Positions 2,938 through 10,371 of a stretch of 36,399 nucleotides of DNA are shown here, piece after piece. How positions within the stretch are numbered: position 1 is the stretch's first letter; each line of letters starts with the position of its first letter. The translations under genes were made by a program, and so were the position numbers. Below the pieces are notes generated by a model that was given only the letters and a program-made list of their open reading frames with translations, did no database searches and was not told the origin of the DNA. This stretch comes from Deferrisomatales bacterium (GTDB lineage Bacteria; Desulfobacterota; Deferrisomatia; Deferrisomatales; JARGFW01): assembly GCA_029211085.1 (NCBI GenBank), contig JARGFW010000025.1, forward strand, positions 1-36,399, read 5' to 3'.

Positions 2938-4962
<2,025 letters not shown>

Positions 4963-4998
4963 GAGAGGGAGCCCTCCGTGGCAAGATCGGAATGCCGG
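4963..4998 (+). repeat. Intergenic repeat, copy 1
   Basis: A 36-base unit beginning GAGAGGGAGCCCTCCG and ending GGAATGCCGG. It matches copy 2 (5011-5046) at 27 of 36 positions by hand alignment. It abuts the uvrB start codon and contains its ribosome-binding site. Confidence 0.55.
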
Positions 4999-5010
4999 GG
5001 GTGGGGCCGC

Positions 5011-5046
5011 GAGGGGGAACTCTCCGCGACGCGATCAGAATCCCGG
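5011..5046 (+). repeat. Intergenic repeat, copy 2
   Basis: Second 36-base unit, same orientation, start-to-start distance 48 bases from copy 1. Its CTCTCCGCG (5020-5028) is also the left arm of a perfect 9-base inverted repeat with copy 3. Confidence 0.55.
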
Positions 5047-5135
5047 ACGTTGGATGGGGTGGGGTGGGTAGATGGGGGATATGTCCCGTCTCGGTGTGTC
5101 GCTCATGGCGAGCGGTTCGCTTGCTGTGCGGCCCG

Positions 5136-5164
5136 GTCGCGCCGCGGAGAGCTCCTCCTCGCTC
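5136..5164 (-). repeat. Intergenic repeat, inverted copy 3 (partial)
   Basis: Read on the minus strand, this stretch (GAGGAGGAGCTCTCCGCGGC and onward) resembles copy 2 over about 25 bases with roughly 20 identities. CGCGGAGAG at 5143-5151 pairs exactly with 5020-5028, so the transcript of this gap could fold into a long stem. The whole 4963-5236 gap contains these repeats and no convincing gene. Confidence 0.45.
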
Positions 5165-5236
5165 TTTGGGCGGGGAAAGGAGCGGGGCCGGCCCCGCCAC
5201 CTCCCGGCGTCCTAGCCTCCTAGCGTCCCAGCTTAC

Positions 5237-6718
5237 TCACCGCTTCATCGTCCAGGTGGTGCCTTCCGGTCCGTCCTTGAGTTCGATGCCCAGTTCCGCC
5301 AGTTCGTCCCGCACCTGGTCGGCTTTCGCCCAGTCCTTGGCTGCACGGGCGGCGGTGCGCTCGGCGATCCTGGCTTCGATGGCGATGTCCTCCAGTCCGG
5401 CGCGCTCCAGCCCTTCCTGGCGCTGCCCCAGGAAGTAGGCCGCGGGTTCTTCCTGCAGGAGGCCCAGTACCCCGCCCAGCCTGCGCAGACTGTTCCGGGC
5501 GTAGCCCAGCACGGCCAGGGATCGCTCGCTGGGTGCGAATCCCTCGTGCAGATACGCCCCCACCTGCCGGGCGCAGCGGTGGAGGTGGCCCAGTGCCTCG
5601 GCGGTGTTGAAGTCGTCGTTCATGGCCTGGTCGAAGTCGTTGAACAGGCCCAGTACCGCTTCGTGCACGGTGCGTTCGCCGTTACCCAGTTCCGCCACCG
5701 GCACCTGGTTCGGCACGGCCTGGCCGTCCAGGGCCTGGCCCAGGCGTTCCAGCGTTCCGTACAAGCGGTCCAAGCCGGCGGCAGCGTCGCGCAGGGAGGA
5801 CTCCGTATAGTCCACGGGGCTGCGGTAGTGGTGGGAGAGCAGGAACAGGCGCAGCACCTCGGGGTGCACGCTAGCCAGCACGTCGCGGATGGTGAAGAAG
5901 TTGCCCAGGCTCTTGGACATCTTCTCCTTGTCGATGTTGACGAAGCCGTTGTGCACCCAGTAGCGGGCGAACGGCTGGCCGGAGTCGGCCTCGGCCTGGG
6001 CCACCTCGTTCTCGTGGTGGGGGAACACAAGGTCCTTCCCGCCGCCATGGATGTCGAAGGTCGCGCCCAGGTACTTCTGGCCCATCACGGTGCACTCAAT
6101 GTGCCAGCCGGGACGGCCTGCGCCCCAGGGACTGTCCCAAGACGGCTCCCCGGGCTTCGACGCCTTCCACAGGGCGAAGTCCAGGGGGCTCCTCTTGCGT
6201 TCGTCCACCTCCACCCGGGCTCCGGCCTCCAACTCGTCGAGGGGCCGCTTGGAGAGGCGGCCGTAGGCCGGGTAGCTCTGCACCGAGAAGTACACGTCCC
6301 CGTCAACGGCGTAGGCGTGACCTGCCTGCTCCAGGCGCTCGACGTGCCGGATCATCTCCTGGATGTGGTCGGTGGCCAGGGGCTCGCGGGTGGGGCGCTC
6401 CACACCCAGGGCGTCCATGTCGCTGTGAAACGCCTCGATGTAGCGTCCCGCGAGTTCGGCGGAGGACACGCCCTGCTCGTTGGCCCGGCGGATGATCTTG
6501 TCGTCCACGTCGGTGAAGTTGCGGACGTACTCCACCTCGTAGCAGGAGTACTTCAGGTAGCGGAAGATCACGTCGAACACCACCGCGGAGCGGGCGTGGC
6601 CGATGTGGCACAGGTCGTATACCGTTACGCCGCACACGTACATGCGCACGTGCCCCGGTTCCAGGGGCTCGAACGGGTCCTTCTGGCCGGTGAGGGTGTT
6701 GTAGATCTTGAGCGCCAT
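5237..6718 (-). CDS. cysS: Cysteinyl-tRNA synthetase
   Basis: This class I aminoacyl-tRNA synthetase charges tRNA-Cys. The 493-residue product has the nucleotide-binding HIGH motif (HIGH 38-41), the catalytic zinc cysteine in YVCG (C29), a WHIEC zinc-site segment (about 205-209), [14 protein letters not shown] (about 225-238), and KMSKS (266-270). The DALR-type anticodon region and a C-terminal extension follow. I chose the ATG at 6718 ([11 protein letters not shown]) rather than the upstream in-frame start at 6769, because the conserved N-terminus begins there and a candidate promoter overlaps the longer form. It is transcribed alone toward uvrB. Confidence 0.97.
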
Positions 6719-6759
6719 GGGGGTTGCGCATCCTTTCGGGGCCGAAAATCGCCGGGCGG

Positions 6760-6788
6760 ACCGTACCAAAGAGGGTCCCGGAAGTCAA
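6760..6788 (-). promoter_or_regulatory. Candidate sigma70 promoter of cysS
   Basis: On the minus strand TTGACT (plus 6783-6788) is separated by 17 bases from TACGGT (plus 6760-6765), 42 bases upstream of the cysS ATG. The spacing is ideal, the -35 has five of six matches and the -10 is weaker. The lack of any other -35-like box nearby supports it. Confidence 0.45.
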
Positions 6789-6803
6789 AGCCATGACGCG
6801 GTG

Positions 6804-8246
6804 CTACAGGGCGGGGGCGAACTCTCGGGGAGCGCCCTGGGGGCGAGCATCCGTGTCCTCGGGGCCGAGATCCAAGGCTTCCAGTTCCGCCCGTACCGCG
6901 TCCTTCTCCGGCCCGTCGGCCAGCAACTTCAAGGCGGCGGTGAACTGGCGACGGGCCAGGTCCCGTTGGCCTTTGTCGGCGTGGTAGCGGCCCAGTTCCG
7001 CGTACCCTTCCCCGGCGCGGCCGGCCTTGCCCAGGGCCAGGCCGCGGTAGTAGGGCAGCTCCTGCCAGCGGGCGTTGGTCTCGCGCAACTGATCGTACAC
7101 CGCCAGGGCCTCTGCGCCGCGTTCCGTCTCCAGGTAGGCCCACCCCAGGTCGCGTAACACCGCCGGGCCGGCTGCGTTGTCGCGGCGCAGGGCCTCCAAC
7201 AGGGCCAACCCCTCCCCTACCCGGCCCTGTCGCAGGCGGGTCGCCGCCAGTTCGTGGAAGGCCTCCGGATCCCCTGGGGCCAGGCGCTCGGCCTGCTGCA
7301 GTTCCGCGACCGCTTCCTCGAACTGCCCCTGTTTGCGCAGCAGCAGCGCCAACCCCAGATGGGCGGCGGGGCTGGTCGCGTGGGCTCGCACCCGTTCCTG
7401 GAACAGCCCCATGCCCCAGGGCCGCGGATCACCAACCAACACCCGGGCTTGGGCACGCCACAGGCCCTCCAGTTGCTCTGCACCCGGGGCCGCCTGGGGA
7501 GCGTCGCGAAGGCTCGCGGAGAGGTACGCCGTGCGGTTCGCGGGCAGGGGGTGGGTGAACAGATAGGCGGGTATACCGTCCGGGGTGGGGGTGGTCTTGC
7601 GCAGCGTTTCCATGAACCGCACCATACCCCAGGCGTCATACCCCGATGCCTGCAGGGCGCGCACCGCCCGGCGATCCGCGTCCTCCTCGTCGAAGCGGCT
7701 GTACTGCAGCAACTTGGCCTGGGCGCCGGCCAGCGCGAAGCTGGTCGCCGCGACGGCGAGCTCCGGGTTGCCCAGGAAGATACCGGCGAGCACCGCGGCC
7801 GCGGTGGCCACATTGACCCTGCCGGCTTTCTCGGCCCGGTAGGCGATGTGGCGGCCCTCCACGTGCCCCATCTCGTGGGCGATCACTCCAGCCAGTTCGC
7901 TCTCGTCGCTGCTGTTGAGGATCGTCGAGCTGGTGACGAAGATGTAGCCACCGGGCACCGCGAAGGCGTTGATGCTGGGGTCGGCCACCACGTAGAACTC
8001 CATCGCGAACTCGCTGGCTCCCATCGCCTTGCTGAAGGTGTCGCCGATGGCCTTGAGATACGCCTCCAGGTACGGGTCGTCGAGCACCACACTGGAATGG
8101 CGCACCTGTCCCAACACCTTCTTGCCGATCTTGCGCTCCTCGGCTTTGGACATGATCGCAGCCCGGGCGGGCGGGGCGGGCAGGGTGGCACAACACAGGG
8201 CGGCCAGGGTCAACCACACGGCTAGGCGACGCAACGGGGAGCTCAT
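6804..8246 (-). CDS. M48-family periplasmic metalloprotease with C-terminal TPRs (BepA-like)
   Basis: The 480-residue product starts with a signal peptide (positive RR near 6-7, hydrophobic core 8-22, probable cleavage near ARA-A about 29). The M48 zinc protease domain has HEMGH at 124-128 and the third metal ligand glutamate in FDEEDADRRA (about 187-188). After about residue 290, degenerate tetratricopeptide repeats run to the end. This order is that of BepA/YfgC, which handles outer-membrane protein assembly and quality control at the BAM complex. The ATG at 8246 is preferred over the longer open frame because it puts the signal sequence at the N-terminus. It is divergent from the chelatase gene. 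Confidence 0.9.
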   Translation of the reverse strand: MSSPLRRLAVWLTLAALCCATLPAPPARAAIMSKAEERKIGKKVLGQVRHSSVVLDDPYLEAYLKAIGDTFSKAMGASEFAMEFYVVADPSINAFAVPGGYIFVTSSTILNSSDESELAGVIAHEMGHVEGRHIAYRAEKAGRVNVATAAAVLAGIFLGNPELAVAATSFALAGAQAKLLQYSRFDEEDADRRAVRALQASGYDAWGMVRFMETLRKTTPTPDGIPAYLFTHPLPANRTAYLSASLRDAPQAAPGAEQLEGLWRAQARVLVGDPRPWGMGLFQERVRAHATSPAAHLGLALLLRKQGQFEEAVAELQQAERLAPGDPEAFHELAATRLRQGRVGEGLALLEALRRDNAAGPAVLRDLGWAYLETERGAEALAVYDQLRETNARWQELPYYRGLALGKAGRAGEGYAELGRYHADKGQRDLARRQFTAALKLLADGPEKDAVRAELEALDLGPEDTDARPQGAPREFAPAL

Positions 8247-8377
8247 TCCGGCACGGTAGCGCAATTGCGTCCACGGTGGAAGCCGCTGCCTTCCCGGCCG
8301 GCCGGCTCCGTGGTAGCATCCGCGACCTTCCACCGCAGCCACCGCCGTGCTCCGGACACACGGCCCGAGAGGACGTC

Positions 8378-9463
8378 GTGCCCCACTCCGAGGTGTACCC
8401 CTTCTCTGCCCTGGTGGGGCAGGAGAAGATGAAGTTGGCGCTGATTCTCAACGTGATCGACCCCACCATCGACGGGGTGCTGATACGCGGGGAGAAGGGC
8501 ACCGCCAAGTCTACCGCGGTGCGCGCCCTGGCCCGACTGCTGCCCGAGATCCCCGTGGTGGCGGACTGCCCCTACCGCTGCCATCCCACTCGCCAACGGG
8601 AGATGTGTGCGACCTGCCGTCAGCGCCTGGAGGCGGGAGACCAACGGCCCGTGGCGGTCGAGCGCATGCGGGTGCTGGACCTGCCGGTGGGGGCCACCGA
8701 GGACCGGGTGGTGGGCTCCCTGGATCTGGAGCACGCCCTCCAGGCGGGCCAGAGCCGCTTCGAGCCGGGCCTGCTGGGACGGGTGAACCGCGGCATCCTG
8801 TACGTGGATGAGGTGAATCTATTGGAGGACCACATCGTCGATGTGCTCCTCGACGCCGCGGCCATGGGGGTGAACCACGTGGAGCGCGAGGGGGTCAGCT
8901 ACACCCACCCCTCCCAGTTCGTGCTGGTGGGCACCATGAACCCCGAGGAAGGGGATTTGCGCCCCCAGTTGCTGGATCGCTTCGGCCTGTGCGTGGATGT
9001 GACGGGCATCCGCGACCCGGCTCAACGGGTGGAGGTGATCAAGCGCCGCCGCGCCTACGAGGCCGACCCCGCTGGATTTCGGGATGCCTGGGCGGACGCC
9101 GACGGCCACATCGGCGAAGCCCTGGTGCGGGCCGAGAAACTGCTTCCATCGGTGACCGTGGACGACGACACCCTGGAGGTGATCGCCACCCTCAGCGTGG
9201 ACCTCGGGGTGGACGGCCACCGCTCCGACGTGGCGATGGTCAAGACCGCATCGGCCCTGGCTGCGTTTCGCGGCCGCACCCGTGTCGTCGAGGAGGATCT
9301 GGCCGAGGCCGCCCCCCTGGTGTATTCCCACCGGGTAAAGAAGGGCGCCCTGGACGAGAAGCTCCTCTCCGAGGAGGAGACGGTCACCTCCATCCGCCGC
9401 ACCCGCGACAAGCAGAAGGCCCGCAAGCCCGCCAAGGCCCCTAAAAAAAAACTTCCGGCCTGA
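8378..9463 (+). CDS. AAA+ chelatase subunit (ChlI/BchI-like; N-terminal part of a chlD-type gene)
   Basis: The 361-residue product is an AAA+ ATPase of the magnesium/cobalt chelatase family. Walker A is GEKGTAKS (38-45) and Walker B is LYVDEVN (141-147), followed by LLEDHIVDVLLDAA and the TMNPEEGDLRPQLLDRF segment. Four cysteines (C64, C68, C77, C80) sit in the CPYRC and CATC motifs, an insertion I associate with the fused ChlI-ChlD type linked to cobaltochelatase rather than with phototroph BchI. The start is GTG at 8378, with GAGAGG five bases upstream. The last codons are CCT AAA AAA AAA CTT, then GCC TGA. The VWA subunit continues in the -1 frame, so this may be the short product of a frameshifting gene. 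No cobN or bchH is in the window. Confidence 0.88.
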   Translation: MPHSEVYPFSALVGQEKMKLALILNVIDPTIDGVLIRGEKGTAKSTAVRALARLLPEIPVVADCPYRCHPTRQREMCATCRQRLEAGDQRPVAVERMRVLDLPVGATEDRVVGSLDLEHALQAGQSRFEPGLLGRVNRGILYVDEVNLLEDHIVDVLLDAAAMGVNHVEREGVSYTHPSQFVLVGTMNPEEGDLRPQLLDRFGLCVDVTGIRDPAQRVEVIKRRRAYEADPAGFRDAWADADGHIGEALVRAEKLLPSVTVDDDTLEVIATLSVDLGVDGHRSDVAMVKTASALAAFRGRTRVVEEDLAEAAPLVYSHRVKKGALDEKLLSEEETVTSIRRTRDKQKARKPAKAPKKKLPA

Positions 9464-9491
9464 ACCCGGTCAAGAAGGAGGCCGACCGGGT
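9443..9491 (+). promoter_or_regulatory. Putative programmed -1 frameshift / slippage site
   Basis: Nine consecutive A (9443-9451) stand as three AAA lysine codons in the ChlI frame, three codons before its stop TGA (9461-9463). Twelve bases after the run, ACCCGGTC (9464-9471) and GACCGGGT (9484-9491) form a perfect 8-bp stem with a 12-base loop. A -1 shift on the A run leads straight into the VWA frame, which has a stop (TAA 9442-9444) only immediately before the run. A run of nine A can also cause RNA polymerase slippage with the same outcome. Confidence 0.6.
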
Positions 9492-9534
9492 CGTCCTCGA
9501 GGAACGGATCTACGGGGCCCGGGGTGAGTTTCGC

Positions 9535-10371
9535 GTGCGGGGTTCCCTGATCAGTCGCCAGGCCCGCAGGAGGTTGGCCAGGGGCCGGCGCCAGAAGAAC
9601 AAGACCTCCCCAGACAGTGGCCGCTACGTGCGCGCCCGCATTCCCATAGCCAAGCCCCGCCATCTGGCCCTGGACGCCACCCTGCGGGCCGCCGCTCCCC
9701 ACCAGGTGCGCCGCCGCAGCCTGGGGCTGGCCCCGCCCGATGGCATCCGGGTGCTGCCGTCCGACTTCCGAGAGAAGGTGCTGGCCCGGCCTTCCGGGGT
9801 CAGCCTGCTGTTCGCGGTGGACGCCTCCGGCTCCATGGGGGCCGACCAGGTGATGACCCGGGTCAAGGGCATCGTGCTGTCCCTACTCACCGACGCCTAC
9901 CAGAAGCGTGACCGGGTGGGGTTGCTGGCGTTTCGCGGCACCGAAGCCCGTTTGGTGTTGCCGTTCACCGCCAGCGTAGAACAGGCCCAGCGCCGCCTGC
10001 GGGGTCTGCCCACCGGCGGCAAGTCGCCCCTGGCCCTGGCTCTCGCCCGCAGCCTGGATGTGCTGGCCCAGGAGACCCGCAAACACCCCGGGCGCACCCC
10101 TATGCTGGTGCTGCTCACCGACGGCAAGGCCAATATCAGCATGGCCGGCGGCGAACCCTTCGACGAGGCCCTGGCCCAGGCCCGCCGGCTGCGCGCCACC
10201 CGCCTGCGTTGCCTGGTGGTGGACACCGACACCACCTGGATCCACTCCTTCGCCTACCCCCGCGCCCTGGCCCAGGCCCTGGGGGGCCGCTGCCTGTCCC
10301 TGCCCAACCTGGAACTCAACCGCATCATCGACTTCGTGAACCTGGGGGAGGGGGGGAGCGCGGCTGTTTAA
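9535..10371 (+). CDS. VWA-domain chelatase subunit (ChlD C-terminal half)
   Basis: From the first usable in-frame start (GTG 9535, preceded by weak GGTGAG) the product has 278 residues: a basic segment (RRLARGRRQK) and a von Willebrand A domain with the MIDAS motif DASGSMG, the second-site threonine region and VLLTDGKAN. This is the C-terminal half of ChlD/BchD medium subunits. The same frame is open further upstream to 9445, and the extra residues (NPVKKEADRVVLEERIYGARG) look like chelatase linker. An independent start is therefore less attractive than production as a fusion with the preceding AAA+ frame; the -1 fusion would be about 664 residues, a normal ChlD length. It lacks its own AAA+ domain. 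The likely role is cobalt (or magnesium) insertion into a tetrapyrrole. Confidence 0.82.
   Translation: MRGSLISRQARRRLARGRRQKNKTSPDSGRYVRARIPIAKPRHLALDATLRAAAPHQVRRRSLGLAPPDGIRVLPSDFREKVLARPSGVSLLFAVDASGSMGADQVMTRVKGIVLSLLTDAYQKRDRVGLLAFRGTEARLVLPFTASVEQAQRRLRGLPTGGKSPLALALARSLDVLAQETRKHPGRTPMLVLLTDGKANISMAGGEPFDEALAQARRLRATRLRCLVVDTDTTWIHSFAYPRALAQALGGRCLSLPNLELNRIIDFVNLGEGGSAAV

Follow-up and report, generated by a model that had tools for sequence, protein, structure and literature searches.

The DNA analysed here, a 36,399-nucleotide stretch from a Deferrisomatales bacterium (the window), carries at positions 8378-10371 a gene that we read, with a probability of roughly 80%, as fs-chlD: a short ATPase and a slippage-made ChlD would together form an AAA+/VWA machine, probably with a target other than cobalt. 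The gene is a new member of a published and experimentally tested family (PMC3711429, PMC9227772). A first-pass annotation of the window had listed chlD frameshifting as known, which holds in that the family is published, although the annotation covered it only in part.

Two frames of one gene meet at a run of nine adenines

The relevant features of the window are as follows.

2938-8342, minus strand: uvrB, cysS and the gene of an M48-TPR peptidase, which diverge from chlD in the window as in several relatives of the order
8367..8373, plus strand: Shine-Dalgarno-like GAGAGGA 5' of the gene start, from direct reading of the sequence
8378..9463, plus strand: zero frame, ChlI-like AAA+ ATPase of 361 aa, GTG start and TGA stop
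9442..9444, plus strand: TAA, which ends the -1 frame on its upstream side and overlaps the first bases of the A9 run
9443..9451, plus strand: putative A9 slip site, in register as AAA AAA AAA and including A_AAA_AAA
9445..10371, plus strand: -1 frame, linker and VWA domain (MIDAS DASGSM), the ChlD half
9461..9463, plus strand: TGA, the zero-frame stop and end of the short product
9464..9491, plus strand: hairpin with an 8-bp stem, ACCCGGTC at 9464-9471 and GACCGGGT at 9484-9491, not supported as a signal
9535..9537, plus strand: GTG, the sole early codon at which a separate VWA product might start, unsupported

The zero frame continues past the A9 run as CTT CCG GCC TGA, so that the stop lies soon after the run, as first annotated, but as the seventh codon counting from the run start and not eight codons after it. 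The VWA frame is indeed -1 to the AAA+ frame and open right back to the run, and the predicted lengths are borne out by the frame structure: a -1 shift would give a fusion of 358 + 306 = 664 residues, compared with the 361-residue ChlI-like ATPase without a shift.

Both halves fit a single NCBIfam model, TIGR02442, named putative cobaltochelatase; their presence in one gene, with the VWA frame at -1 and an A-rich slip site in the overlap, is as in fs-chlD. The zero-frame half matches TIGR02442 at model positions 1-340 (E 5e-150) and also TIGR02030 (E 1.6e-127), in each case under the whole-protein cut-off, and the VWA half matches TIGR02442 at positions 392-640 (E 1.1e-73) as well as VWA_2 (PF13519). 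A profile built on the AAA+ homologues of the order matches the ChlI structures 6l8d, 8osf and 1g8p (PDB, ChlI/BchI). The AAA+ half contains Walker A (GEKGTAKST), Walker B (LYVDEVNLL) and GTMNPEEG motifs, and four of its Cys residues are invariant across the order.

The junction is conserved across the order

Orthologous loci were aligned from the host and 11 other genomes of its order that were reached by search, most of the genomes compared being drafts. The VWA half was found in 12/12 genomes and the junction lay on a contig in 10 of the 11 others, giving, with the window, 11 readable junctions from separately assembled genomes of four families. Near relatives that bear names are the 'Deltaproteobacteria' MAGs BM512 and BM525 and 'bacterium isolate 128-326'. 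The run is A9 in 10/11 junctions and A10 in the remaining one (G004), the VWA frame is at -1 in all 11, and a zero-frame stop follows in all 11 at 15-19 nt past the run start (5-6 codons on). The T directly before the run is kept in 10/11. Besides the stop, the run is the sole conserved element of the junction. The proteins of these relatives are 66-78% (AAA+) and 55-72% (VWA) identical to those of the window, and the arrangement is therefore old. Runs of nine A's are rare, with only nine in the 5.78-Mb assembly of the host, and lysine is preferentially encoded by AAG (109/128 Lys codons in eight coding stretches of the window); together with the recurrence at every readable junction, this means that the A9 arrangement is not due to chance. 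The host genome is itself a draft (96.9% complete, 8.5% contamination), and the tree nonetheless groups the gene with its order, whose chlD genes make up a single clade (SH-aLRT 100).

Selection in the -1 frame and the origin of the VWA half

We compared the -1 frame among relatives over the 20 codons that begin at the zero-frame stop and counted 319, 239 and 515 pairwise differences at codon positions 1, 2 and 3, respectively. Judged from this pattern, protein-type selection in the -1 frame begins at the zero-frame stop codon, and in most genomes of the order it sets in ahead of any start codon. The motif KKxSHLSPEKKxxDRxV, which includes LSPEKKxxDR, is conserved in the VWA frame from the run onward.

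These observations bear on two simpler accounts of the locus. Homopolymers are error-prone and the window stems from a draft genome, and the frame break might accordingly have arisen by missequencing or by a recent mutation in a single metagenome assembly; however, the identical break and frame recur with near-constant run length in 10 other separately assembled genomes of four families, and selection in the -1 frame starts immediately after the run, which leaves this account with next to no probability. The relatives' junctions rule out an indel or a pseudogene. A continuous frame in another strain, named beforehand as the result that would overturn the two-product reading, was found at none of the 11 junctions of the order. 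The VWA protein could instead be a separate translation product, initiated either at GTG 9535 or, through translational coupling, at the stop codon. That in-frame GTG is present in the window and, as first annotated, is a weak and solitary early candidate, but start positions are not conserved among the relatives, the VWA frame is already conserved at residues ahead of 9535, and G002, G009 and G011 offer no ATG, GTG or TTG in this frame over the 161-194 nt that follow the run start. Independent initiation therefore cannot be the general route, and we regard a separately started VWA protein, including an internal start at GTG 9535, as very improbable.

Because the junctions are conserved in the order and selection appears to run from the stop codon, it is very likely that a single gene encodes and yields both a ChlI-like ATPase and a ChlD of about 664 aa, and the proposal of one gene with two chelatase-type subunits through a -1 frame change at A9 is upheld by the same evidence. 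We infer that both products are made: reading straight through A9 would give the 361-residue AAA+ ATPase, and slippage at A9 would give the 664-residue ChlD-type protein, consisting of the identical ATPase and a VWA domain. Slippage would most likely consist of RNA polymerase inserting one A to yield A10 transcripts, or otherwise of a ribosomal -1 shift on A_AAA_AAA, and the two products may then assemble as a ChlI/ChlD-type AAA+/VWA machine.

The hairpin folds like shuffled sequence

The first-pass annotation had joined the run to a perfect 8-bp stem beginning 12 nt past it. The stem exists, but a role in the signal did not hold up: the region is no more stably folded than its shuffled versions (z = 0.03 over 49 nt and +1.36 over 79 nt), RNAalifold found no common structure among 11 relatives, and pairing across this stem is seen in 53.4% of cells, the same as the shuffled mean. 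The hairpin was thus rejected as a stimulator. A downstream stimulatory RNA structure, usual though not strictly required in fs-chlD, was accordingly not found here. An Rfam search of the window gave no matches, and inspection by eye of the junctions of the order showed no Shine-Dalgarno-like element at a constant position before the run, in agreement with the first annotation.

A second gene, gspH, is split in the same way

The gene for the type II secretion minor pseudopilin GspH is cut likewise in the order, reading TTC AAA AAA AAA GCC TAG with the remainder at -1.

Host genome G000, contig C454, 18270-18278: A9 run in gspH (loci L172, L173 and L185; relatives at L174-L184)

The split is present in 12/12 genomes of the order, at A9 in 11 and at A8 in G006, where the C-terminal frame lies at +1 and the shorter run may be an assembly error. 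As to the identity of the gene, the first half has its best match in TIGR01708, under the cut-off (E 1.4e-5), and in G006 it directly follows a clear gspG. An SLAL motif is conserved straight past the run, and the differences at the three codon positions number 387, 243 and 710. Outside the order, in other families of the phylum, gspH homologues mostly form one uninterrupted frame (26 genomes with a match). Taken together, these sequence features make gspH a probable second slippage gene; in the literature searched, we found no pseudopilin gene, gspH included, described as undergoing slippage or frameshifting.

We inspected the remaining A9 runs of G000, G001, G003 and G004 for broken frames and found no clear conserved case besides gspH. 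Two runs (L169 at G000:C311:103-111 and L203 at G004:C18:69108-69116) lie in similar frames, ...FGGSAKKK and ...FAGGAKKK, with early stops in both alternative frames. An A9 run is also conserved between G000 (L165) and G001 (L198) in a conjugation gene that resembles TraB/VirB10 (named by eye) and has one frame; slippage there would truncate the product.

Polymerase or ribosome

The frame junction holds what polymerase slippage calls for, a homopolymer of conserved length, and the sequence evidence leans somewhat towards RNA polymerase over the ribosome, because bare A9 runs occur in two unrelated genes that lack conserved stimulators, and because of the A8 variant of gspH with its frame at +1 and the separate tRNA-Lys UUU and CUU in G003, a situation linked to polymerase slippage in Thermus dnaX (PMC5009743). 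Ribosomal -1 frameshifting on A_AAA_AAA would lead to the same two products and is a serious contender, if somewhat short of an even chance. The published family has been read as ribosomal and is frameshifted in E. coli, A_AAA_AAA is a valid site and in register, the first AAA codon adds just two A's to the heptamer, and other fs-chlD loci carry the heptamers A_AAA_AAG (L049, L099) or C_CCT_TTC (the archaeal L050, L089 and L095). Against this, the order has neither a conserved stimulatory structure nor the upstream Shine-Dalgarno-like element, the exact length of nine A's is kept in two unrelated genes, and the gspH A8 variant, unless it is an assembly error, would be beyond a -1 ribosomal shift and reachable by polymerase slippage.

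Those archaeal genes, from Methanomassiliicoccales and relatives, have no A run; C_CCT_TTC is conserved immediately before the zero-frame stop, with the VWA frame at -1, and by its sequence looks like a classical ribosomal slip site.

Relation to known fs-chlD genes and other slippage systems

Frameshifts of -1 in 'magnesium chelatase' genes were described in Pseudomonas, Burkholderia, Delftia, Herpetosiphon and methanogens, and fs-chlD cassettes in E. coli gave 63%, 40% and 10% frameshifting with 11, 9 and 7 A's, respectively (Antonov et al., 2013; PMC3711429). A_AAA_AAR is under purifying selection there while structure is not strongly conserved (Atkins et al., 2016; PMC5009743), and fs-chlD occurs in different phyla, where some of its hosts, termed 'stage 1', have no large subunit and its function in them is given as unknown (Kuznetsov et al., 2022; PMC9227772). 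The genes of the order share with this family the ChlI-like AAA+ frame, the A-rich slip site, the short zero-frame tail with its stop, the -1 VWA frame, conservation across species and the lack of a separate chlI, and with its 'stage 1' members also the lack of a large subunit. They differ in keeping a near-exact A9 throughout (with one A10), in having no conserved hairpin and in forming their own clade. Among 77 homologues with comparable frames, 66 are continuous, and the frameshifted ones sit at few places on the tree. A further paper on this programmed-frameshift family was reportedly published by Antonov in 2020.

Slippage at an A run giving two length variants is also found in dnaX of Thermus thermophilus and tssM of Citrobacter rodentium (PMC5009743, PMC4256274), the latter being, like gspH of the order, a secretion-system gene. 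These are different genes, and in the order the run length is conserved in two genes.

A ChlI/ChlD pair mostly without CobN or BchH

The host genome was searched for a separate chlI/bchI, cobN and bchH, and none was found: matches to the small subunit elsewhere in the genome are weak and YifB-like, and there is no match to PF02514, the family of both CobN and BchH. PF02514 is missing from 9/12 genomes of the order (the host and eight others, mostly drafts, one of them 100% complete). CbiK and CbiD are both present in 12/12. They are markers of the anaerobic B12 route, which has its own single-protein cobalt chelatase, and B12 cobalt insertion in the order could be carried out by CbiK. The same markers set these hosts apart from the published stage-1 hosts, which have no B12 synthesis. 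The gene neighbourhood (M48 peptidase, cysS, uvrB) gave no functional clue.

Within the order, a CobN-like gene occurs only in genus g4 (G003, G008 and G010). The CobN-like protein at G003:C1:3639307-3642375 and that on G010:C98 (L137) are encoded a few kb from a CbiK-family gene. Elsewhere in the phylum, G013, G039, G053 and G056 have CobN matches without a full ChlI, and these may be HmuS-like. CobN-like HmuS proteins with a role in heme iron are known (PMC12583661, PMC6460266).

The first-pass annotation had assigned the pair to cobalt insertion, which we find unsupported. The Mg-chelatase BchHID was rejected on the absence of BchH (PF02514), and the CobN-ChlID cobaltochelatase on the absence of its large subunit from the host. 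As a cobaltochelatase, the pair would fit the name of TIGR02442, the published association of fs-chlD with cobN in B12 producers, where it is common (PMC9227772), and the CobN-like gene of g4; it would also share two smaller subunits with the CobN-ChlI-ChlD enzyme (Rodionov-type). Yet nine genomes of the order lack the large subunit, CbiK is present instead, in G003 some 1.9 Mb separate the g4 gene from chlD, the G010 protein scores under every CobN/BchH cut-off (a fragment ended by the locus edge was scored), and CobN matches in the phylum occur without full ChlI. A role as cobaltochelatase is thus unlikely.

As the order shows no tie to a CobN/BchH large subunit, the pair probably serves some other target, and since CbiK-containing hosts still keep the two-product gene, it must have its own use. 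By analogy, the ChlI/ChlD pair probably acts on a target other than B12 cobalt, like the MoxR/VWA metal-centre chaperones, a proposal that builds on the absence of the large subunit in mostly draft genomes. In the MoxR/VWA pairs (NorQ/NorD, CoxD/CoxE, RavA/ViaA) an AAA+ ATPase works with a MIDAS-VWA partner and no corrin- or porphyrin-binding subunit. The sequence here is of the ChlI/ChlD class and the analogy is functional only; a chaperone role resembling that of other AAA+/VWA pairs is our best guess.

The slippage device itself was already known; here it is kept across a whole order, mostly without the presumed partner subunit. This adds to the fs-chlD family an order-wide, strictly conserved case apart from the large subunit that is usually invoked, and an own use of the ChlI/ChlD pair is a question that the literature itself names as open. 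We hold at even odds the combined proposal that the order has fixed polymerase slippage at A9 in at least two unrelated genes, chlD and gspH, and that its ChlI/ChlD acts without CobN or BchH. That gspH has an A9 run as well suggests that this lineage uses homopolymer slippage as a routine means of expression.
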